Positions 3,629 to 62,740 of a stretch of 64,000 nt of DNA are shown here, piece after piece. Origin of the DNA: Actinoplanes sp. NBC_00393 (GTDB lineage Bacteria; Actinomycetota; Actinomycetes; Mycobacteriales; Micromonosporaceae). Below the pieces are notes generated by a model that worked only from the letters and a program-made list of their open reading frames with translations, ran no database searches and was not told where the DNA came from. How positions within the stretch are numbered: the stretch's first letter is position 1; every line of letters starts with the position of its first letter. A program made the translations under genes and the position numbers. The DNA lies in assembly GCF_036053395.1 (NCBI RefSeq), contig NZ_CP107942.1:10282001-10346000 (forward strand), read 5' to 3'.

Positions 3629-4441
3629 TTGCCCAAGCACACCGTCGCGGTCATCGGGGCCGGCAAGATCGGTGAACTCGTCATCTCCGGCCTGCTGCGT
3701 TCCGGCTGGCCCGCCTCCCGGCTGCTGATCACCGCCCGGCGTCCCGCGCGCGGCGCCGAGCTGGCCGAGAAGTATGGCGTGACGGTGGTCGAGAACGCCG
3801 AGGCGGTGACGCGGGCGGACATCCTCGCGATCGCGGTGAAGCCGCAGGACGCCGCGGCGCTGTTCGACGAGATCGGGGCGAAGGTCCCCGCCGGCAAGCT
3901 GGTGGTGTCGCTCTGCGCCGGGCTGCCGACCAGCTTCTTCGCCGCGCGGCTGCCGGAGGACACCCCGGTCGTGCGAGTCATGACCAACACGCCGGCGCTG
4001 GTGGACCAGGCGATGACCGCGATCTCGGCGGGCCCGCACGCCAACGACGAGCACCTGGCCATCGCCGAGGAGATGTTCAAGCCGCTCGGCGCGACGCTGC
4101 GGGTCCCGGAGTCGCAGCAGGACGCGGTCACGGCGCTCTCCGGTTCCGGCCCGGCGTACTTCTACCTGCTGGTCGAGGCGATGATCGACGCGGGCATCCT
4201 GCTCGGTCTGCCCCGGCAGGTGGCGCACGAGCTGATGGTCCAGACCGCGATCGGCTCGGCCGTGATGCTGCGCGACTCCGGTGAGCACCCGGTGAAGCTG
4301 CGCGAGGCGGTCACGTCCCCGGCCGGCACGACCATCTCGGCGATCCGCGAGCTGGAGAAGCACGGCGTCCGCGCCGCGCTCCTGGCCGCCCTGGAAGCGG
4401 CCCGCGACCGCGCCCGCGAGATCGCCGACCAGTCCCGGTAA
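3629..4441 (+). CDS. proC: Pyrroline-5-carboxylate reductase
   Basis: A 270-residue enzyme for the last step of proline synthesis, reducing pyrroline-5-carboxylate with NAD(P)H. The N-terminus VAVIGAGKIGELVISGLL is the Rossmann dinucleotide motif. ALSGSGPAYFYLLVEAM and the run ending TSPAGTTISAIRELE are the ProC dimerisation-domain signature. Length is normal for the family. The start is TTG at 3629, supported by GGAGGAAG five bases upstream and by homologous N-termini (MPKHTVAVIGAG). It follows the pfkA terminator and must have its own promoter. It is followed by a tandem hairpin-repeat array and a convergent gene. Confidence 0.95.
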   Translation: MPKHTVAVIGAGKIGELVISGLLRSGWPASRLLITARRPARGAELAEKYGVTVVENAEAVTRADILAIAVKPQDAAALFDEIGAKVPAGKLVVSLCAGLPTSFFAARLPEDTPVVRVMTNTPALVDQAMTAISAGPHANDEHLAIAEEMFKPLGATLRVPESQQDAVTALSGSGPAYFYLLVEAMIDAGILLGLPRQVAHELMVQTAIGSAVMLRDSGEHPVKLREAVTSPAGTTISAIRELEKHGVRAALLAALEAARDRAREIADQSR

Positions 4442-4445
4442 TCCG

Positions 4446-4682
4446 GCTGACGCTCAGCGTCGCCTCGCGGCGCGGGAAGCAGCATTGAGCGTCAGCTGGT
4501 CGGTCGGGCTGACGCTCAGCGTCGCCTCGTGGCGCGGGAGGCAGCATTGAGCGTCAGCTGGTCGGTCGGGCTGACGCTCAGCGTCGTGTCGCGGCGTGGC
4601 AGGCAGCATTGAGCGTCAGCTGGTCGGTCGGGCTGACGCTCAGCGTCGTGTCGCGGCGTGGGAGGCAGCATTGGGCGTCAGC
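4446..4682. repeat. Array of four 62-bp near-palindromic repeats (array 1)
   Basis: Units begin at 4446, 4508, 4570 and 4632, exactly 62 bp apart, with only a few substitutions. Each unit opens with GCTGACGCTCA and closes with TGAGCGTCAGC (the last with GGGCGTCAGC), so each can fold into a hairpin with an 11-bp outer stem. The array fills the 340-base gap between convergent proC and the DUF429 gene. Related units occur at 51241 and 61651. No spacer-like variation is seen, so it is not a CRISPR. Confidence 0.95.
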
Positions 4683-4783: not shown

Positions 4784-5461
4784 TTAATACCAGATCGCGA
4801 TCCTGCTGCCGTTACTCTCCTCGGGCGGGCTGGGATGGCTGAGGGCCGTGCCGGTCGCGACGCGGTGGGCGGTCCAGGCGACCGCGGCGGCGTCCAGGAT
4901 GTCGTCGGGTGGGGCCTGGCCCGCCGGGCCCAGGCGGTCCGGCAGCACGATGCCGTTGCGGGCCAGCAGCTCGCGGCGGCGGGCCTGGCCGCTCCAGGTC
5001 TTCTTCGCGTACGGCAGCGGCTCACCGGCCATGGTCCGGAACGAGACCTCGGGGTGTGCCTCGAAGAGCAGACCGGGATGGCGTTCCCAGATCGCGTTGG
5101 CCTCGAGCAGCTTGGGGCGCAGCGCCCACGACTGCCGGCTCAGGCCGGCGCCGGTGAGTTCGCGGCAGACGCGGTTGGCGGAGGCGAAGTCGGCCTCCTC
5201 CCAGACCGCGCGCGGCGGGACCCGGAAGACGCTGCCGCGGCGCGGGCCGAGCTGGTCGGCGGCGAGGGTGTCGGCGGCCCGCCAGCGGTCCGGGAGCATG
5301 CCGAGGGGGATGTCCACGCCGATCACGGCCGCTCCGGAGCTGCCGGCGACGATCTCGTAGAGCGTGGACGCCAGGACCGCGCGCCCGAAGGCGCCGTCGC
5401 GGAGCTCGACGCCGACCCAGCCGAGCGCGTACGCGTCGACTCCGATCACATGGATGCTCAT
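4784..5461 (-). CDS. DUF429 family protein (predicted RNase H-fold nuclease)
   Basis: A 225-residue protein starting MSIHVIGVDAYALGWVGVEL. The early GVDAY...GWVGVEL and GVDIPLGMLP segments carry the acidic residues typical of DUF429, a family predicted to share the RNase H fold; HPEVSFRTMAGEPLPYAKK is the other conserved block. Biochemical role is not established for the family. Its ATG shares one base with the stop codon of the upstream peroxidase gene (TGATG), so the two are translationally coupled. The 3' end converges on the 62-bp repeat array. Confidence 0.82.
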   Translation of the reverse strand: MSIHVIGVDAYALGWVGVELRDGAFGRAVLASTLYEIVAGSSGAAVIGVDIPLGMLPDRWRAADTLAADQLGPRRGSVFRVPPRAVWEEADFASANRVCRELTGAGLSRQSWALRPKLLEANAIWERHPGLLFEAHPEVSFRTMAGEPLPYAKKTWSGQARRRELLARNGIVLPDRLGPAGQAPPDDILDAAAVAWTAHRVATGTALSHPSPPEESNGSRIAIWY

Positions 5462-20657: not shown

Positions 20658-21323
20658 TTGACCTGGGACGAGTACGCCACCGCCTGGTCCGGGCTGCACG
20701 GCGGATTCGACCCGCGCCGGGCCTCGCCGCTGGTCCGGGGGTGGGTGCGTGGGGCGTACGAAATCGGGTCCTGGCTGAGCCGTCGCGGCGTGACGCCGAT
20801 CGTGGTGACGCTGACCGGCCTCCTTCTCTGCCTGGCCGTGCCGCTTGCGGCGCTCGGTGGATTGCCTGGCCTCGCGCTGGGTGCCGCCCTGGCGCTGCTG
20901 GCCGCGGCCGCGGACGGCCTGGACGGCGCGGTCGCGGTGGTGAGCGGGCGGGTCAGCCGGACAGGCTTCGTCTACGACTCGGTCGCCGACCGGTTGGGCG
21001 AGCTGGCCTGGCTGGCGGCCTTCTGGTCGGCCGGGGTGCCAGGCTGGCTGGTGGTCGCGGTCGGCGCGGTGAGCTGGCTGCATGAGTACGTGCGGGCGCG
21101 CGCCGCCGCGGCCGGGATGCCCGAGATCGGCGTGGTGACGGTGGGCGAGCGGCCCACCCGCGTGGCCGTCACGGTCAGCGGCCTGCTGGTGGCGGCGCTG
21201 GCCGGCGTGGTGCTCCCCGACTGGACCGTCCCGGTCCTGGTCGTGGCCGTCCTGGTCTGGGCGGTGCTGCAGACCGCCGGCCTGCTCCAGCTCTCCCTCG
21301 CCGTCCGCCACGCGCTGCGCTGA
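20658..21323 (+). CDS. CDP-alcohol phosphatidyltransferase-family membrane protein
   Basis: A 221-residue polytopic membrane protein. ADGLDGAVAVVSGR, then eight residues on G and VYDSVADRLGE, matches the CDP-alcohol phosphotransferase signature DxxDG..A..8..GxxxDxxxD, except that the Arg after Ala is Val. It should transfer an alcohol phosphate between CDP-linked and lipid or polyol substrates, as in phospholipid-head-group synthesis; substrate unknown. The start is TTG at 20658, with no strong ribosome site, seven bases after metF, so it is probably translated from the metF transcript. The gene end is copied into a GC-rich tandem repeat. Confidence 0.85.
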   Translation: MTWDEYATAWSGLHGGFDPRRASPLVRGWVRGAYEIGSWLSRRGVTPIVVTLTGLLLCLAVPLAALGGLPGLALGAALALLAAAADGLDGAVAVVSGRVSRTGFVYDSVADRLGELAWLAAFWSAGVPGWLVVAVGAVSWLHEYVRARAAAAGMPEIGVVTVGERPTRVAVTVSGLLVAALAGVVLPDWTVPVLVVAVLVWAVLQTAGLLQLSLAVRHALR

Positions 21324-21455
21324 CCCGCGCCCGCCGTGCGCCGCGCGCTGCGCCGGCCCCGCCCGCCGTGCGCTGCGCCGGCCCCGCGCCCGCCGTGCGC
21401 TGCGCCGGCCCCGCGCCCGCCGTGCGCCGCGCGCTGCGCTGACCCCGCGCCCGCC
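21314..21455. repeat. GC-rich tandem repeat copying the end of the preceding gene
   Basis: About four degenerate copies of a 27-30 bp unit around CGCGCCCGCCGTGCGCTGCG. The gene's terminal GCGCTGCGCTGACC (stop codon included) at 21314 recurs near 21432. No coding potential. The following 120 bases up to the HNH gene are unusually AT-rich (ATCTTTATTC, TATTTTCTTTGTC) and probably hold its promoter. Confidence 0.8.
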
Positions 21456-21575
21456 GGGCTTGCGGCGATCTTTATTCGGTTGTCGGGCGTCGATGCCGCG
21501 CCTATTTTCTTTGTCAGCAGGCAGGCCATCTGACCTGCGGATTCTCCCTTTCTATGCGTGCGGAGGTGACGAAGA

Positions 21576-40380: not shown

Positions 40381-40684
40381 GCGGCGTTTCTTCCCAGCCA
40401 GCCAGCCAGCCCCGCCCGCCCGCGCGTGGCATGCGCTCTGCCGTGGTCCTGCCTGGCGCTCTTCGGCCTTTGTGCGGCTGACGCTTGTCCGTTGGCGCTT
40501 GCTCTCTTCCACCGGCCGGCCCCCGCTGTTCGCGCTTCCGTGGGCTGTCACCGCGGTCCTCGCCCCGGCCAAGGCTGGCAGAGCATGTTGCTCGTATCCC
40601 CACGCCTGTTGCGCGTACCCCACCCGGCAGCCGCTCGGCCACCCGCCGGGCTGGAGCTGTTGTCGTGCTCGCCTGCCGGTGCCC

Positions 40685-40774
40685 GCCGGGCTGGAGCTGT
40701 TCGTCGAGCCCGCCTACCTGCGCCCCGCCGGGCTGGAGCTGTTCGTCGAGCCCGCCTACCTGCGCCCCGCCGGG
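40685..40774. repeat. 42-bp tandem repeat in intergenic region
   Basis: Two identical 42-bp units (40685-40726, 40727-40768), opening GCCGGGCTGGAGCTGTTCG, and the start of a third. A shortened relative lies at about 40644. The 300 bases before it (40381-40684) are low-complexity GC-rich sequence with CCAGCCAGCCAG and CCCGCCCG runs and no supported gene. Confidence 0.9.
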
Positions 40775-40851
40775 CTTGGGGCTGCTCATCGCGCCTACCG
40801 CCGCCGTACCGCGTGGCGCTAGCCGTGGCGGGCCATCGGCTGTGGCCGCCC

Positions 40852-40903
40852 GGCTGGCGCTCAGTGCCGTTTGGCGCCCTCGCGACAGCGCTGAGCGCCG
40901 GCC
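40852..40903. repeat. Single inverted-repeat element
   Basis: Arms GGCTGGCGCTCA (40852-40863) and TGAGCGCCGGCC (40892-40903), 11 of 12 paired, 28-base loop. In arm sequence and size it resembles one unit of the 62-bp hairpin family. Confidence 0.6.
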
Positions 40904-50434: not shown

Positions 50435-50827
50435 GTGCCGCTCTCGGAGCACGAGCAGCGGCTGTTCGATCAGATCGAGCGGTCGCTTGCCGAGGACCCC
50501 AAGTTCGCCTCGGCTGTGCGGGCCAGCGACCCGCGTTTCCATGCACGGCGCCGGCTCCTCATCGCCGCGTTCGTGATCGTCCTTGGACTCGCTCTCGTCG
50601 TCTACGGGACCGTGAGCCAGAACACGCCGCTCGGCGTGGCCGGCTTCGTCGTCATGCTGGGCTCAGCGGCCTTCGCGATGCAGTCGCGGCGCCGCAGCCA
50701 GGCCCCCGACCTGAAATCGGTCGGCGGCACCGCATCACGGCGCACACGGCAGGGAGGCGGCCGTAAGGGCGGCCTCATCGACAGGCTCGAGGACCGGTGG
50801 CGGCAGCGCCCGGAGGGACATCGCTGA
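50435..50827 (+). CDS. DUF3040 membrane protein
   Basis: A 130-residue actinobacteria-specific protein. PLSEHEQRLFDQIERSL near the N-terminus is the DUF3040 signature, followed by two transmembrane helices (LLIAAFVIVLGLALVVYG; VAGFVVMLGSAAFAM) and a basic cytoplasmic tail. Function unknown. It often neighbours a Y-family polymerase gene in actinobacteria; here the ImuB-DnaE2 cassette is 3 kb upstream. GGGGAGG lies eight bases before the GTG at 50435, which fixes that start over an in-frame upstream GTG or ATG. Confidence 0.88.
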   Translation: MPLSEHEQRLFDQIERSLAEDPKFASAVRASDPRFHARRRLLIAAFVIVLGLALVVYGTVSQNTPLGVAGFVVMLGSAAFAMQSRRRSQAPDLKSVGGTASRRTRQGGGRKGGLIDRLEDRWRQRPEGHR

Positions 50828-50883: not shown

Positions 50884-51090
50884 TCGTCGTGTCGTCACGC
50901 GAAACCCGCTTCATCCGGCCGGGGTGATTCGCTGCCGGCTTTTTCGTGGTACGCCTACGCGTCCTGCCGCTCGCGGCCCCTGGGCCGTAGCCACTCGCGC
51001 ACGCCACTCCGCCGCCGGGCTGATGCTGCCGCCCAGCTGCTCCGCAGCCTCTCCCGCATGCGGTCCGCCGCCGGGCTGATGCTGTCGGTC

Positions 51091-51240
51091 GGCTGCTCCG
51101 CAACCTCCCAAACAGCCCTGAGTGCCAGCTCGGCTGCGCTGGCTGCTCCGCAACCTCCCAAACAGCCCTGAGTGCCAGCTCGGCTGCGCTGGCTGCTCCG
51201 CAACCTCCCAAACAGCCCTGAGTGCCAGCTCGGCTGCGCT
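51091..51240. repeat. Three identical 50-bp tandem repeats
   Basis: Units 51091-51140, 51141-51190 and 51191-51240 are identical as read, opening GGCTGCTCCGCAACCTCCCA. GCTGCTCC...CTGAGTGCCAGC resembles the complement of the 62-bp family (GCTGCTTCC...GCTGAGCGTCAGC), so this may be an inverted, shortened branch of it. Directly abuts array 2. Confidence 0.95.
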
Positions 51241-51674
51241 GGCTGACGGTGGCGGTTGTTTCGCGGCGTTTGAGGCAGCGTTGGGTGTCAGCTGGGTGGG
51301 TTGGCTGACGGTGGCGGTTGCTTCGGGGTGTTTGAGGCAGCGTTGGGTGTCAGCTGGGTGGGTTGGCTGACGGTGGCGGTTGCTTCGGGGTGTTTGAGGC
51401 AGCGTTGGGTGTCAGCTGGGTGGGTTGGCTGACGGTGGCGGTTGCTTCGGGGCGTTTGAGGCAGCGTTGGGTGTCAGCCGGGCGGGTCGGCTGACGCTGG
51501 CGGTTGCTTCGGGGCGTTTGAGGCAGCGTTGGGTGTCAGCTGGGCGGGTTGGCTGACGGTGGCGGTTGCTTCGGGGCGTTTGAGGCAGCGTTGGGTGTCA
51601 GCTGGGCGGGTCGGCTGACGGTGACGGTTGCTTCCCAGCCCTTTAAGCAGCGCTGGGCGTCAGCCCGGGATACG
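51241..51674. repeat. Array of seven 62-bp repeats (array 2)
   Basis: Units start at 51241, 51303, 51365, 51427, 51489, 51551 and 51613, exactly 62 bp apart, opening GGCTGACGGTGGCGGTTGC and closing GTGTCAGC plus a GGGYGGGT tail. Same length and frame of conserved words (GGCTGAC, TTGCTTCG, GAGGCAGC, GTCAGC) as array 1. Inner arms pair less well than in arrays 1 and 3. Lies between convergent DUF3040 and tgpA-like genes. Confidence 0.95.
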
Positions 51675-51736
51675 GGGCTGGCGTCTGGGGGGCGGGCTGG
51701 TGGTCAGGGCTGGTTGCGGGCGGTCTGGGCAGCACC

Positions 51737-51768
51737 GAGCGCCAGCCGGTGGGGCGTGGCTGGCGCTC
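51737..51768. repeat. Inverted repeat at end of the repeat field
   Basis: GAGCGCCAGC (51737-51746) and GCTGGCGCTC (51759-51768) pair perfectly over 10 bp, loop 12. It is 38 bases from the stop of the minus-strand transglutaminase gene and may act as its terminator. Confidence 0.7.
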
Positions 51769-51806
51769 AGTGCTGTTCAGGTGTGTTCAGCGGGCTCGGG
51801 AATCTT

Positions 51807-54257
51807 TCAGCGGGCCCGGCTCAGCAGCCGGCGTGGGCTGAAGCGGCTCAACGAGTCCCGCATGCGGGTCATCGCCTCCGCGGCCCGGGTGGACCACTCG
51901 GCGACTGCGAGGCGCCAGCTCAGCACCACCGACGGCGGCAGCAGGAGGGCCCGCATCCTGGTCCGGAACGTGGCCGAGCCGGCCACGCCGGTCCGGATCC
52001 GGCCGAGCGCCGCGGTGAGTTCCGCACCCTGGAGCGGCTGTCGCGCGTACCGGGCTCGTTCTTCGGCCGTGCCCAACAACGTTGCGGCCTCGGCCGCGTC
52101 GCCGGCCAGCTCGGTCTCCCGGATCAACCGCTGCGCGGTGTGCCGCGGCGTCTCCGTCGGATCGACCGGAACCCGGAAATCGATCATCGTGTCGATCAGT
52201 TCGTCCCAGGCCGCATGGGCGTCGGCGCGGGCGCGTACCGAATCGCTGGTCACGACGATGTCGGTGATCGAGCCGGCCGGCCCGGATCCGCCTGCCGGGA
52301 CCGCGGTGGCGGTCGCGCCCACGGTGACCGAGTGTCGTCGTCGGCGCAGCAGGGCCCGGCGCATCGCCGGGATCAGCAACAGGGCGATGGCGAGCGCCAC
52401 GCCGCCGGCGATCATCGCGCCGGTCCACGAGCCGTCGTCCGGAACGATGCCGTCGTCGATCACCGAACTGCCGCCGTCGTTGCCCTGGTCGGGGCGGTTG
52501 GGCGTGTTCGGCGCCGCCGAGGACTCGGTCTCCGGGTCGGTGGCGCCCGCCGAGGCGGAGGCCGTCGGCTCGGGCTCGTCGACGTTGCGCGCCCACGGCG
52601 TACGCGTCGACCCGACCACCCCGCCCGCGGGCGTGGCGTCGAACGGCACCCACCCGAAGCCGTCCAGGTAGACCTCGGTCCACGCATGCGCGTTCTTGTT
52701 CGAGATCTGGTACGCCCCGTTGCCGAGCGAGGTGCCCCGGGTGAAGCCGAACGCCACCCGTGCCGGGATCCCGGCGACCCGGACCATCCATGCCATCGCC
52801 GCCGCGTACTGCTGGCAGAAGCCGGACTTGTTCTTCAGGAAGGCGGAGATGTCGGTGGTGTTGCCGGCCGACTCGGCGACCATGGCGTACCGGAAGCCGT
52901 TCTTCTGGGAGAAGTGCTCGTAGATCGCCCGGACCCTGTCGTACTCCGTCTCCTGGTCCGCGATCAGGCCCTTGACCAGGCGCTCCACCGCCGGATCGTC
53001 CGGCGACTCGGTGTAGCGGAGCAGCGGGTTGCCCGGCTCCAGCGGCTGCGCGGTCCGCAGGTCCGCCCGGCTGTACCGGGGCCGCTGGTAGGTGAACGTA
53101 TACTTCTGCTCTCCGGTCGTCGTACGCCCGGAGAAGAGCACCTGCTGGTTCCGGTCGTACGACCAGTTGCCGTTGAGGTCACTGACCTCGGTCGGATAGG
53201 TGTAGAGCGGCGCCATGCTCTGCTGCAGCGCGTCGCTGACCTCCACCTCGGCGCGGAACTGGGCCAGCGCTGCCCGGGAGGCCGCCTCGCGCGGATCGGG
53301 CAGTCCCTGTGCGAGCGACTGTCCCTTCGGGGCCTCGTTGCCGAAGCCGTCGGTGGTCAGCACGTCGGCGACCGCGAACCGCAGGTAGAACGGCTCCGGC
53401 TCGTTGGTCGTCACCTTGATGACGTTGACCGTGGCGGACTGGTTGAGCTGGCCGCTGAGCGCCGCGAACAGGTTGATCCGTCCACCGCCGGGGCCGCCGA
53501 TGCCGGGGCCCACGCCGGTGCCGCTCTGGGTGAGCCGGGAGAGCAGGCCACCGCTGACCGTCGGCACCGCCAGGGGCAGCAGCACCGCGACGAGCACGCC
53601 GATCACGCCGATCCGGCGGCCGGCCGCGGCGAGCGGGGACGGCTCCCAGACGTCGACGTCCCGGCCGTCGCCGGTGAAGCGGCGGCCGAACCTGCGTACC
53701 CGGTCGACGTTGTCCGCCACCAGCAGCCACATGTAGCCGGCCGCGCCGATGATGAACGGCACCACCGGAACGCTGTCCAGGTAGACGGCGACCGGGATGG
53801 AGTAGATCGCGAGCATCGGCAACCCGGCCAGGGCGGGCTTGCGGAACACCGCGGTCAGCAGGTCCACCAGGATGGCGACCGCGCCGATGCCGAGGACGGT
53901 GACGAAGTGCAGGCCGTCGCGGTCCGGCACCGGCACACCGTACGACCGGGTGTCCTCACCGGCCTGCTGGATCAGGTCCGCGAAGTGCGCGAACGTGGCC
54001 GGCTGCGGGATCAGGATCTCTTTGCCGCTCGGGAAGATCCAGGTCAGGGCAAGTGCGAGCGCCACCACCATGCACAGGGTCTGCGCCCAGGTGGGGAACC
54101 GGAGGGTACGCGCACCGACCGCCGCCCCGGCGATCAGCAGCACCGTGAGCAGGCTCTGCAGCAGCCAGGTCCAGGAGTCGAAGATCGCCGAGAGCGGGGC
54201 GGCGGCGAGCAGTGTCGCAGCCGCCGCGACGAGTCCGAGACGACGCCGGCCGGTCAT
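51807..54257 (-). CDS. TgpA-like membrane transglutaminase (DUF3488-transglutaminase-DUF4129)
   Basis: An 816-residue polytopic protein. Residues 1-230 contain six or so helices (DUF3488); an extracytoplasmic part follows, with a transglutaminase-like core whose triad is visible as Cys481 (SGFCQQYAAAMAWMVR), His524 (NAHAWTEVY) and Asp540 (PFDATP). A low-complexity Ser/Glu/Pro linker leads to one further helix near 625-650 and a cytoplasmic DUF4129 tail. Probably acts on surface proteins as protease or transglutaminase. ATG at 54257 overlaps the DUF58 stop (ATGA). Third gene of the MoxR-DUF58-TgpA operon. Confidence 0.92.
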   Translation of the reverse strand: MTGRRRLGLVAAAATLLAAAPLSAIFDSWTWLLQSLLTVLLIAGAAVGARTLRFPTWAQTLCMVVALALALTWIFPSGKEILIPQPATFAHFADLIQQAGEDTRSYGVPVPDRDGLHFVTVLGIGAVAILVDLLTAVFRKPALAGLPMLAIYSIPVAVYLDSVPVVPFIIGAAGYMWLLVADNVDRVRRFGRRFTGDGRDVDVWEPSPLAAAGRRIGVIGVLVAVLLPLAVPTVSGGLLSRLTQSGTGVGPGIGGPGGGRINLFAALSGQLNQSATVNVIKVTTNEPEPFYLRFAVADVLTTDGFGNEAPKGQSLAQGLPDPREAASRAALAQFRAEVEVSDALQQSMAPLYTYPTEVSDLNGNWSYDRNQQVLFSGRTTTGEQKYTFTYQRPRYSRADLRTAQPLEPGNPLLRYTESPDDPAVERLVKGLIADQETEYDRVRAIYEHFSQKNGFRYAMVAESAGNTTDISAFLKNKSGFCQQYAAAMAWMVRVAGIPARVAFGFTRGTSLGNGAYQISNKNAHAWTEVYLDGFGWVPFDATPAGGVVGSTRTPWARNVDEPEPTASASAGATDPETESSAAPNTPNRPDQGNDGGSSVIDDGIVPDDGSWTGAMIAGGVALAIALLLIPAMRRALLRRRRHSVTVGATATAVPAGGSGPAGSITDIVVTSDSVRARADAHAAWDELIDTMIDFRVPVDPTETPRHTAQRLIRETELAGDAAEAATLLGTAEERARYARQPLQGAELTAALGRIRTGVAGSATFRTRMRALLLPPSVVLSWRLAVAEWSTRAAEAMTRMRDSLSRFSPRRLLSRAR

Positions 54258-59792: not shown

Positions 59793-60549
59793 GTCCTTCG
59801 ATCTGATCGCGACCGAGTTCCTGGTCCGCGCCGACCTCCTCGCCCCCGGCCTGGTGGAGGGCCTCTACCTGCAGGGATCGATCGCACTCGGCGACTACCG
59901 GCACGGGGTCAGCGACATCGACTTCGTCGCGGTGACCGCGGACCCGGCGCCCCCGGAGCTGATCCGGGAGATCCACCGCGGCATGCCCCGCCGGCCGTGC
60001 TTCGACGGCCTCTACGTCACCTGGGACAACCTGCGCGCCGACCCGGCAACCCGGCCGCCCGGCCCGGCCGTCCACGAGAACCGGGTGCTGCCGTCCTCCC
60101 GCTTCGAACGCAACCTGGTGACCTGGCACGTCCTCGCGCAGGGCGGCGTCACCCTGCGCGGCCCCGAACGGCCCGAGATCTTCACCGACTGGCCGGCGCT
60201 GGCCGCCGCGACCCGCGACAACCTCGAGTCGTACTGGCGGCCGTGGGCGCGCGGGCTCCGCTTCCACCCGATGAGCCTCGGCTCGTGGGCGGTGTCCTGG
60301 GGTGTCCTCGGCGTCTCCCGGCTCCGGCACACCCTGGTCACCGGGCGGGTGACCAGCAAGACCGCGGCCGGCGAGTACGCGCTGCGCAGCTATCCCGGCT
60401 GGGAGCGGATCATCGGCGAGGCGCTGCGGATCCGCGGTGGTGGCCCGGCCCGCTACCGCAATCCGGTCCGGCGCCGGGGCGATCTGCTGGCCTACCTCGA
60501 GTACGCGCTGGACCCGGACGGCCCGCCGGACGCCGAGCTGCTCCGATGA
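59773..60549 (+). CDS. Nucleotidyltransferase-domain protein (aminoglycoside adenylyltransferase-like)
   Basis: A 258-residue protein. LYLQGSIALGDYRHGVSDIDFVAV has the polymerase-beta-type GS...DxD motif, with the metal-binding aspartates in SDIDF. The C-terminal helical domain (SWAVSWGVLGVSRLRHTL; AAGEYALRSYPGWERI) resembles ANT(9)/AadA-type enzymes. It might adenylylate a small molecule; resistance is possible but not shown. Start is uncertain: GTG 59773 lies in the loop of a hairpin and GTG 59791 at its edge; neither has a ribosome site. Stop overlaps the next gene (ATGA). Confidence 0.82.
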   Translation: METWRAVSFDLIATEFLVRADLLAPGLVEGLYLQGSIALGDYRHGVSDIDFVAVTADPAPPELIREIHRGMPRRPCFDGLYVTWDNLRADPATRPPGPAVHENRVLPSSRFERNLVTWHVLAQGGVTLRGPERPEIFTDWPALAAATRDNLESYWRPWARGLRFHPMSLGSWAVSWGVLGVSRLRHTLVTGRVTSKTAAGEYALRSYPGWERIIGEALRIRGGGPARYRNPVRRRGDLLAYLEYALDPDGPPDAELLR

Positions 60550-61655
60550 TCTCCGCACGTGCTCTGAACCGGGCGACCCTGGCCCGGCAGATGCTCCTCG
60601 AGCGGGAACCGGCGCCGGTCGAGGACGCGGTGCGCCGCCTGGTCGGACTGCAGGCTCAGGCGCCGGGTTCGCCGTACCTCGCGCTCTGGAACCGGATCTT
60701 GAACTTCGAGCCGGCGGCGTTCGACGAAGCCTTCGCCACCGGCATGGTCGTGAAAGCCACCCTGATGCGGATCACCCTGCACGCGGTGCACCGCGATGAT
60801 CATCCGATGCTGCACAACGCCGTGCTGCGGGTGCTGCGCGCGGCACGGCTGGGTGATGCCCGGTTTATCCGCAGCGGGGTGTCGATCGCCGAGGTCGACG
60901 CGTTCCTGCCGGAGCTGCTCGCGTTCGCGGACCGGCCCCGGACGGTGCCGGAGATCTCCCAGCTGCTCGCGGAACGGTTCGGCGGTGATCGTCCCGGCCT
61001 GTGGTGGGCGCTGCGGACCGTCGCGCCGCTGCACCACGTGCCGACCGGCGGACCGTGGTCGTTCGGCGAGCGTTCGTTCATCGCGGCCCCGGCCGGTCTG
61101 ACGCTCGCTTCGCGCGACGAGTCTGTCCGGACGCTGGTGCGGCGCTACCTGGCCGCCTTCGGCCCGGCGACCATCGCCGACATGTCCCAGTTCACGCTGC
61201 TGCCGCGCACGACTCTGCGCGAGGCGGTGCGCACGTTGGAGCTCGCCCAGCCAACCCCACAGATGTACGACCTACCCGGCGCCCCGCTGCCCCCGGAGGA
61301 CGTGCCGGCCCCGCCCCGCCTGCTGCCCATGTGGGACAACGTCCTCCTCGCCTACGCCGACCGCGCCCGCCTGATCCCGCCCGAATACCGCAAGGCAGTG
61401 ATCCGCATGAACGGCGACGTGCTCCCGGCCGTCCTGGTCGACGGCTACGTGGCGGGGGTGTGGCGCGCCGTCCCCAACGGCATCGAGGCAACCGCCTTCC
61501 ACCCGCTCCCCGCCGCGACCTGGGACGCCCTGGCCGCCGAAGCCGCCGCCCTGTCCGCTTTCCTCGCCTCGCGCGACCCGCTCGTCTACGCCCGCTACGC
61601 CCACTGGTGGGCAAAACCGCTCCCCGCCGCCCAAACCCGCCTGCTCCCCAGCTGA
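60546..61655 (+). CDS. AlkZ-like winged-helix DNA-binding protein (HTH_42)
   Basis: A 369-residue protein of the HTH_42 family, which contains three winged helices. RLVGLQAQAPGSPYLALW carries the QxQ motif that in AlkZ/YcaQ DNA glycosylases binds and unhooks alkylated or crosslinked bases. Other family blocks: TLMRITLHAVHRDD, PATIADMSQFTLL and LLPMWDNVLLAYADR. DNA glycosylase activity, or self-resistance to a genotoxin, is plausible. ATG overlaps the nucleotidyltransferase stop, so both are coupled. The stop codon (AGC TGA) lies in the first bases of repeat array 3. Confidence 0.87.
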   Translation: MISARALNRATLARQMLLEREPAPVEDAVRRLVGLQAQAPGSPYLALWNRILNFEPAAFDEAFATGMVVKATLMRITLHAVHRDDHPMLHNAVLRVLRAARLGDARFIRSGVSIAEVDAFLPELLAFADRPRTVPEISQLLAERFGGDRPGLWWALRTVAPLHHVPTGGPWSFGERSFIAAPAGLTLASRDESVRTLVRRYLAAFGPATIADMSQFTLLPRTTLREAVRTLELAQPTPQMYDLPGAPLPPEDVPAPPRLLPMWDNVLLAYADRARLIPPEYRKAVIRMNGDVLPAVLVDGYVAGVWRAVPNGIEATAFHPLPAATWDALAAEAAALSAFLASRDPLVYARYAHWWAKPLPAAQTRLLPS

Positions 61656-61827
61656 CGCCGAGCGCTGCTTCACAGCGCGGAAGGCAGCGCTGGCGGTCAG
61701 CCGGGCTGGTCCAGCTGACCGTGAGTGCTGCTTCGCAGCACGAGAAACCGCGCTGGCGGTCAGCCGGCGTGGTTCAGCTGACGGTGAGTGCTGCTTCGCG
61801 GCGTGGGAGGCAGCGGTGGCGGTCAGC
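61651..61827. repeat. Array of three 63-bp near-palindromic repeats (array 3)
   Basis: Units start at 61651, 61714 and 61777. The first opens GCTGACGCCGAGCGCTGC and closes GCAGCGCTGGCGGTCAGC, a stem of about 17 pairs with one bulge. Conserved words GCTGAC, TGCTTCGC, GGCAGC and GTCAGC match arrays 1 and 2. Between the convergent HTH_42 gene and a TVP38-family gene. 61828-61977 shows no gene. Confidence 0.95.
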
Positions 61828-62017: not shown

Positions 62018-62740
62018 TCAGGCAGTGGCCGCGTCGCGACGGGCGGTGTAGCGCCAGCGCAGGACGATCGCGGTGGAGAGGGCGAAGCCGATCGCCGCGG
62101 GAGCCAGCGTGGCGGCGTTCATCTCGCCGGGGGCGGCCACGGCCGCGCCGATCACCGCGTAGGTGACCGTGGACGGGATGGCGGCGATCGTGGTGCCCAG
62201 CAGGTAGCGCTTGCGGCAGACGCTGGTGGTGCCGTAGGCGTAGCCGACCAGGCCGAACGGGGCCAGCGGCAGGAACCGGACCAGCAGCACCGCGGCCAGG
62301 CCGCGCCGGTTCAGCCAGCCGTCCAGGCGGGCCAGGCGGCTGCCGGCGCGGGCCTGCAGGGCGCCACGGCCGGCCCAGCGGCCGGCGTAGTAGGTCGCGG
62401 TCGCCGCGATGATCGCGGCGGCCAGCGCGGCGAGCGCACCGGTTGCGGCGCCGAGGAGGAGACCGCAGAGGAGCGTGATTGCGGTACGGGGTACGAGCAC
62501 CGAGAGCAGCAGTCCGCCGACCACCGCGACCGCGGCCGGAGCACCCGGGCCGAGATCGTCGACGCTGGCGCCGATCTCCTGCAGCGGGAGCGTGGTGGCC
62601 GCGAGGGCGAGGGCGCCCACCACCGCGGCGAGCATGCCGAACCGGACGAGGCGGCGCTTCCAACCAGGGGCAGCCTGTGCAACGGCCTGAGGGTCCGCGA
62701 GGTGTTCCACGCCCCGCGGGGCGATCAGGATGTCGGTCAT
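62018..62740 (-). CDS. TVP38/TMEM64-family membrane protein (VTT domain)
   Basis: A 240-residue protein with about six helices. LVRFLPLAPFGLVGYAYGTT is the VTT/SNARE-associated core (F/R-P-hydrophobic-P-F motif) and GTTIAAIPSTVTYAVIG the following re-entrant helix, as in DedA-superfamily lipid scramblases or transporters. Probably acts in membrane lipid handling or ion-coupled transport; substrate unknown. Monocistronic by its own terminator. ATG at 62740; the 45 bases to gatD carry no other feature. Confidence 0.88.
   Translation of the reverse strand: MTDILIAPRGVEHLADPQAVAQAAPGWKRRLVRFGMLAAVVGALALAATTLPLQEIGASVDDLGPGAPAAVAVVGGLLLSVLVPRTAITLLCGLLLGAATGALAALAAAIIAATATYYAGRWAGRGALQARAGSRLARLDGWLNRRGLAAVLLVRFLPLAPFGLVGYAYGTTSVCRKRYLLGTTIAAIPSTVTYAVIGAAVAAPGEMNAATLAPAAIGFALSTAIVLRWRYTARRDAATA

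Follow-up and report, generated by a model that had tools for sequence, protein, structure and literature searches.

A genome-wide family of 51 bp hairpin repeats, often in tandem behind genes, with species-specific ends in Actinoplanes

The window analyzed here is a 64,000 nt stretch of Actinoplanes sp. NBC_00393 (contig NZ_CP107942.1, positions 10,282,001 to 10,346,000), in which three tandem arrays of a 51 nt palindromic unit are located; the repeat features are assigned to neither strand. Array 1 (4446..4682) consists of four units (4446-4496, 4508-4558, 4570-4620 and 4632-4682) separated by 11 nt spacers. It begins four bases after the stop codon of proC, which encodes pyrroline-5-carboxylate reductase (3629..4441, plus strand; Pfam P5CR_dimer, 2.3e-39), and faces a convergent DUF429 protein gene (4784..5461, minus strand; Pfam DUF429, 2.9e-54). 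Array 2 (51242..51664) has seven units, starting at 51242, 51304, 51366, 51428, 51490, 51552 and 51614, also with 11 nt spacers, between a DUF3040 protein gene (50435..50827, plus strand; Pfam, 2.1e-26) and a TgpA-type transglutaminase gene (51807..54257, minus strand; Pfam TgpA_N, 9.8e-45). Array 3 (61651..61827) comprises three units at 61651, 61714 and 61777 with 12 nt spacers, and lies between the genes for an AlkZ-like DNA glycosylase (60546..61655, plus strand; Pfam, 2.4e-66) and a VTT-domain protein (62018..62740, minus strand; Pfam, 7.1e-22). The TGA stop codon of the AlkZ-like gene falls within the GCTGAC of the first unit of array 3. The original prediction had recognized arrays of four, seven and three units, which were confirmed by direct reading and by TRF (scores 406, 706 and 229, respectively), as was the position of all three between convergent genes; the start of array 2, given as 51241, is corrected to 51242. 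All 14 units are exactly 51 nt long, start with GCTGAC, end with GTCAGC and follow the predicted period of 62-63 bp.

Several further elements of the window belong to the same family or resemble it. A degenerate eighth unit of array 2, which had been overlooked, is located at 51696..51746; it is weak, with 7 mismatches and an E value of 0.019 in our covariance model R1. An isolated 50 nt unit of the GCTGGC...GCCGGC type is found at 40853..40902 (model R1, E 1.3e-4; fold -35.8 kcal/mol). Directly before array 2 lies a 50 bp tandem repeat (51091..51245; TRF period 50, 3.1 copies, 100% matches), which overlaps a model R1 match at 51081-51129 (E 0.023) and which we read as a truncated hairpin unit together with its spacer. 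If so, the 62-63 bp step is not absolute, because here a truncated unit would have multiplied with a step of 50 bp. Behind array 2, a hairpin CAGCACCGAGCGCCAGCC-n10-GGCTGGCGCTCAGTGCTG at 51730-51775 looks like the end of an old unit, its spacer and the start of the next unit, and has a near counterpart at the same junction of the relative G126 described below. Other tandem repeats of the window, at 21299-21456 and 40642-40795 with 61 bp and 42 bp periods, appear unrelated to the hairpin family by eye. The Rfam 15 covariance models gave no gathering match in the window and none at E values up to 1 in 51000-51800.

The pattern GCTGACN{36,46}GTCAGC occurs at 571 places in the NBC_00393 genome (a single contig of 11.43 Mb) compared to 7 for the pattern read backwards. 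In the other 149 of 150 sampled genomes of the family it was found at 1-57 places (controls, 0-43), and it had no match in a wider collection of genome contigs, from which the NBC_00393 genome itself was perhaps left out. For a detailed census, we analyzed 2.06 Mb composed of five blocks of the same chromosome (2.0 Mb) and the window; genes were called with our own codon-model finder and units with a pair-based scorer at a threshold of 14, whose training alignment A1 includes units of the same blocks. This yielded 306 units, compared to 2 in the reversed sequence, forming 99 arrays of 1 to 12 units each, 41 of which are single. Within arrays, the spacer is 11 nt long in 107 of 207 cases, 12 nt in 88 and of another length in 12.

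To follow the family in relatives, as the original prediction had proposed, we searched with covariance models. Model R1 matched 23 of 67 Actinoplanes genomes at E <=0.001 (at most 88 candidates scored per genome). That the repeats constitute one family, as predicted, was supported. With model R2, at least 27 of 200 genomes of the family had a match (at most 29 candidates scored per genome), namely 14 Actinoplanes genomes with 4-29 matches and 13 genomes of other genera with 1-13 weaker ones; two genomes of one genus outside Actinoplanes (G098 and G006) had 13 and 9 weak matches. The core pattern of the relatives is present, among the matches listed, in the GTDB species genomes of A. xinjiangensis, A. 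utahensis, A. italicus and A. lutulentus. At 80 loci of these named species among the matches listed (120 for the stop-distance comparison below), the units are likewise 51 nt long, and 79 of the 92 spacings are 12 nt. Several Actinoplanes thus carry a 51 nt hairpin repeat family, often head to tail behind genes, of which we found no description in the parts of the open-licence PubMed Central literature that were covered.

Each unit is a 51 bp near-palindrome, GCTGAC...GTCAGC, that can fold into a hairpin with up to 22 bp and a 7 nt loop, and the units fold at -26.2 kcal/mol vs -17.8 kcal/mol after shuffling. From the window arrays it had been noted that the arms change on both sides together; this holds, and is much stronger across species. 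In the first alignment (A1, 56 units), the covariation score of 0.253 beat all shuffles (0.189), while two of five measures, pairs changed on both sides (11 vs 10.5) and further pair types (34 vs 32.3), were not above them. In alignment A2, which contains 32 units from 23 genomes, 89.9% of the cells pair and 18 of the 22 pairs have changed on both sides; the score for covariation reaches 0.478 vs 0.183 (sd 0.015) for shuffled and at most 0.114 for slid alignments; the units of A2 were mostly found with a structure-aware model, so that these values lean toward pairing. Within NBC_00393, pairs 8 to 12 show no excess of pairing over independence (0.53-0.94 vs 0.47-0.94). Units are preceded by R and followed by Y in 195 of 195 spacers; when one unit per array is taken, this holds for 92 of 99, and the two flanking bases do not covary.

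The ends of the unit differ among species. The terminal sequence is GCTGAC in NBC_00393, GCTGTC or GCTGTG in A. italicus and GCCCAAC in G126, while the named-species loci among the matches listed have GCTGGC and GCTGGT, with one of each in 133 of 273 units. Since the ends differ by species on both sides together, we propose that pairing, or a co-evolving recognizer, is conserved rather than one sequence. In the NBC_00393 sample, GCTGAC is present on both arms in 183 of 306 units and GCTGGC in 27; a minority of units with other ends (GCCGTC/GCCGCC, GCTGGC and GCTGGT; for example at genome positions 10662460-10662699) are perhaps older subfamilies.

The relative G126 has the highest proC identity (94%) among 66 relatives. 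One of its contigs, of 352 kb, is collinear with the NBC_00393 chromosome in blocks of mostly 84-92% identity, and the chain of a second contig to the same genome averages 86.6%. When up to 3 mismatches are allowed, the GCTGAC pattern is found in NBC_00393 (529/515) and in six other relatives, whose mismatches are located in the ends, and it is absent from G126. Conversely, a search for the GCCCAAC form gave 46 places in G126 and no match in any of the 66 remaining genomes (control, 0). Several GCCCAAC copies are identical on different G126 contigs, which points to recent dispersal in this genome.

All three window arrays are absent at the orthologous G126 junctions (gaps of 360/39, 916/114 and 318/107 bp in NBC_00393/G126), as are five further arrays, where the G126 gaps are again short (765/57, 332/30, 1153/5, 361/38 and 344/24 bp). 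Because G126 retains the same convergent junctions, one of them only 39 bp long, without arrays, the window arrays are dispensable there. Neither this absence nor the species-private arms had been anticipated in the original prediction. At four junctions (genome positions 10561835, 10575436, 5194470 and 5224319 in NBC_00393), both species have units with different ends. The proC locus was identified in 30 of 67 genomes, of which 19 were parsed (one with N across much of its junction) and 11 did not contain the motif used. Units follow proC at 4 of the 19 parsed junctions, including that of NBC_00393 and one weak case; in A. xinjiangensis, proC is followed by a unit that starts 62 bp downstream. 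In two other relatives, the repeats or long hairpins behind proC differ in sequence from this family (L292 in G174 and L291 in G169), and the genus may have more than one family of 3′-end hairpins.

The position between convergent genes extends beyond the window. Of the 99 arrays, 54 lie between convergent, 36 between co-directional and 3 between divergent genes, and 6 overlap predicted genes. Units are present at 50 of 316 convergent junctions compared to 35 of 1160 co-directional and 3 of 314 divergent ones (Fisher tests, 9e-15 and 9e-13); when only junctions that leave 20 bp or more in addition to the units are considered, the corresponding counts are 43 of 170, 33 of 631 and 3 of 309. Co-directional arrays are closer to the upstream stop codon than to the downstream start codon in 25 of 36 cases in NBC_00393 and in 30 of 39 in the named species (120 loci listed), and 10 and 14 of them, respectively, lie within 15 bp of a stop codon, vs 0 and 2 within 15 bp of a start codon. 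Gene ends between -9 and +12 bp from an array number 35 of 144, vs 23.1 (sd 3.0, maximum 34 in 2000 trials) under uniform placement. Nine gene ends are at a distance of -5, which fits a TGA stop codon inside the GCTGAC of the unit, as read directly in array 3 alone. In the named species, 84 arrays among the matches listed are distributed over 28 convergent, 25 co-directional and 8 divergent junctions, with 18 at an edge and 5 overlapping, against a background of 100 convergent, 301 co-directional and 68 divergent junctions, so that the avoidance of divergent junctions is weak there. The preference for gene 3′ ends and convergent junctions was thereby borne out. A lack of 3′-end preference together with a lack of arm covariation had been named beforehand as speaking against a functional RNA or terminator, and the opposite was found on both counts.

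Spacers of the same array have almost the same sequence, whereas those of different arrays are unrelated; their length is nevertheless 11-12 nt in nearly all cases. Adjacent units are 87% identical, compared to 59% for units of different arrays, and pairs at the edge of an array are less alike (83%) than inner pairs (90%). The flanks of multi-unit arrays resemble the array's own spacer (0.52 and 0.50 on the two sides vs 0.39 and 0.37 in the null), with a flank at least 80% like the spacer in 15 of 56 multi-unit arrays. Since spacers are private to their array, flanks are spacer-like and edge pairs are less alike than inner ones, local duplication of a unit with its flank followed by unequal exchange is well supported as the probable way in which the arrays grew. 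Isolated units showed no target-site duplication, which old insertions could have lost; two single units with apparent direct repeats of 10-11 nt turned out to be inside arrays, beside units that the scorer had missed. The left and right flanks of 92 arrays agree at 0.318 vs 0.292 in the null, whose highest value was 0.319. As predicted, no REP-type transposase is encoded in the window, and in the whole genome the search for a Y1 transposase of the RAYT type returned only two partial IS200-like remnants, at 3439669 and 3492728 (L205 and L204). Y1_Tnp is present in 10 of 23 R1-positive and 11 of 44 R1-negative genomes and absent from G126. A Y1 transposase was rejected as a requirement, as 13 of the 23 R1-positive genomes lack it.

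The family resembles REP/REPIN elements, which are extragenic palindromes present in hundreds of copies per genome, often behind genes, sometimes in tandem and in lineage-specific families; the 571 places and the 93 of 99 arrays outside predicted genes correspond to this high copy number and extragenic location. The REP features compared here, from the available sections of two papers, are 20-40 bp palindromes, a GTAG/CGTC tag and an associated RAYT (PMC3733652; PMC3116915). In contrast, the Actinoplanes units are 51 bp long, keep a strict 62-63 bp step with array-private spacers and a replication-strand asymmetry, and do not require a RAYT. No GTAG/CGTC tag was found in units or spacers; the ends GCTG and CAGC pair with each other and the conserved flanks are only R and Y. 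The predicted likeness to a REP-like mobile family therefore stands for its dispersed, extragenic and high-copy nature, but not for the tag or a required Y1 transposase. BIMEs are likewise palindromes clustered between genes, but they hold REPs in alternating orientations according to the sections of PMC2817692 used here, whereas the Actinoplanes unit repeats head to tail in one register, with 195 of 207 spacings at the 62-63 bp step. A CRISPR array was rejected, as the spacers are near-identical within an array and differ between arrays. In the RNIE paper, TRIT of Mycobacterium tuberculosis is reportedly a repeated hairpin terminator motif of an actinobacterium. TRIT, which is named as a model in the consulted section of PMC3526491, is likened to the present family by description only, as a repeated hairpin motif of an actinobacterium.

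A functional parallel may be the U-less (I-shaped) terminators of high-GC Actinobacteria, which are long and stable hairpins that directly follow genes and have no U-tract. Of the 535 highly structured 3′ ends in S. clavuligerus, 353 lack U, and the available part of PMC8269248 does not describe such ends as one dispersed tandem sequence family; termination by the Actinoplanes units would be by analogy. In Streptomyces, many transcripts terminate at U-poor hairpins that are long and stable, as far as the sections of PMC12207403 and PMC8269248 show, and its terminators have 3-4 U in 10 nt (PMC12207403, same section). U is not enriched after the Actinoplanes units (1.76 and 1.55 in 10 nt on the two sides vs 1.66 in the control) or after the outermost units (1.98 and 1.75 in 10 nt; 4 or more U in 9% and 7% of the ends vs 8%). 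With ~1.7 U in 10 nt, the units are below even the value given for Streptomyces in that part of PMC12207403. A canonical intrinsic terminator was thus rejected: a stable GC-rich hairpin is present at the gene end, but neither side carries a U-tract, and fewer U follow the hairpin than in Streptomyces terminators. Of the predicted bidirectional terminators, the placement at 3′ ends and convergent junctions is upheld and the canonical intrinsic form is not. By these comparisons the family behaves as a REP-type extragenic palindrome and probably also as a U-less 3′-end hairpin, and it is not a REP proper, a canonical terminator, a BIME or a CRISPR array.

A strand asymmetry that had not been foreseen is present within the units. 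As a sign of selection on RNA, we compared G·U with A·C on the transcribed strand and found no significant difference (20 vs 12 arrays in NBC_00393, p 0.22; 15 vs 16 in the named species). The strand bearing G·T switches by chromosome block, and the switch matches the replichores when the origin is taken at dnaA (8,534,356) and the terminus opposite. G·T wobble is on the leading strand in 66 vs 20 arrays and in 41 vs 8 convergent arrays. Co-directional cases are confounded, with 26 of 36 genes on the leading strand; of the 10 co-directional genes on the lagging strand, 3 have the wobble on the sense strand and 5 on the opposite one. The unit arms have a leading-strand keto excess of 0.085 (74 vs 19 arrays), and the loops and spacers of multi-unit arrays one of 0.238 vs 0.03 in other intergenic DNA; the 60 bp flanks of the arrays are unbiased in sign (51 vs 45). 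The bias is not significant in the loops of single units (24 vs 17, p 0.35) or in the loops and spacers of block B4 (8 vs 7), and is not consistently present at 4-fold coding sites. Differences between adjacent units are more often C/T than A/G on the leading strand (368 vs 272), with 75:36 in loops and 293:236 in stems (p 0.02). The contig is not rotated to dnaA, and ordinary intergenic DNA has a weak leading-strand keto excess whose sign changes with the replichore. The asymmetry thus follows the replication strand and not transcription, and is no evidence for or against a role as RNA. We read it as strand-biased mutation of bases exposed at the replication fork.

The family itself, its pairing, its placement and its turnover are directly shown by these data. 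We infer an action of the units on transcripts from the convergent bias, the proximity to stop codons, the covariation and the fold stability, as counted in NBC_00393 and its relatives. The best reading, to which we give about an even chance, is that REP-like extragenic palindromes with species-varying ends are amplified as DNA behind genes and act in both directions as U-less 3′-end hairpins. The 51 bp near-palindrome, which lies behind genes and above all between convergent ones, would be duplicated head to tail with 11-12 nt of neighboring sequence and homogenized by unequal exchange. The transcribed hairpins would then be terminator-like or block 3′ exonucleases in both directions, and would keep convergent transcripts apart. 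The lack of a U-tract and the wobble without bias to the transcribed strand count against such a role, as do G126 managing without the window arrays, copy numbers varying from 1 to 12, and divergent junctions that are not clearly avoided in the named species (8 arrays, 68 junctions); our estimate, initially slightly above even, was lowered because the U content was weighed against PMC12207403. The paired arm changes could instead be a product of mutation, namely of template switching between the arms (quasi-palindrome correction), rather than of selection for pairing, and two-sided changes between adjacent units do exceed independence (110 vs 52.8); however, recent changes are mostly one-sided (733 vs 110) and only 30 of the 110 two-sided changes keep pairing before and after, and we consider this explanation highly improbable. 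Rather unlikely, too, is that the units are functionless selfish palindromes, non-autonomous and moved by some enzyme, which remain behind genes after being purged from genes and promoters. The arrays missing at orthologous G126 junctions, the identical GCCCAAC units on different contigs and the genus-wide but patchy distribution would fit this explanation, but no target-site duplication was found at isolated units, a Y1 transposase is absent from 13 of the 23 R1-positive genomes, and the strong covariation and stop-codon proximity would need an extra reason.

The main rival, possible though clearly less probable than the 3′-end role, is that the palindromes have their role, or simply multiply, at the DNA level, as hairpins at the replication fork. 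Hairpins would extrude in the lagging-strand template, slippage would build the arrays, exposed bases would mutate with a strand bias, and gene 3′ ends would be where they do least harm. The leading-strand G·T wobble, the keto excess in arms, loops and spacers next to unbiased flanks, and the surplus of C/T differences between adjacent units favor this model, as does a spacer length kept at 11-12 nt over unrelated spacer sequences, with 62-63 bp corresponding to about six helical turns. It does not readily account for gene ends lying near arrays more often than under uniform placement, for the unbiased loops of single units and of block B4, or for a truncated unit multiplied with a 50 bp step. 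Moreover, ordinary mutation bias may explain part of the asymmetry, because a weaker keto bias is also present in other intergenic DNA (233 vs 134; 0.061 in convergent intergenic regions). Somewhat more tentative still is the fuller proposal of a new fork-living bacterial repeat, in which hairpins of the lagging-strand template would drive helically phased 62-63 bp amplification and leave a mutation footprint strongest in loops and spacers, and in which each species would replace the ends throughout its genome, on both arms and along with a putative recognizer.

Private hairpin ends in at least two close relatives point to an unusual kind of repeated DNA. With relatives that are mostly 84-92% identical and four shared junctions, these ends make the concerted evolution of dispersed repeats directly testable, and the strand signature would serve as a natural reporter of DNA hairpins at the fork. 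If the 3′-end reading is true, Actinoplanes has a large and fast-changing class of extragenic palindromes outside the REP/RAYT system, which may supply many of its transcript ends.
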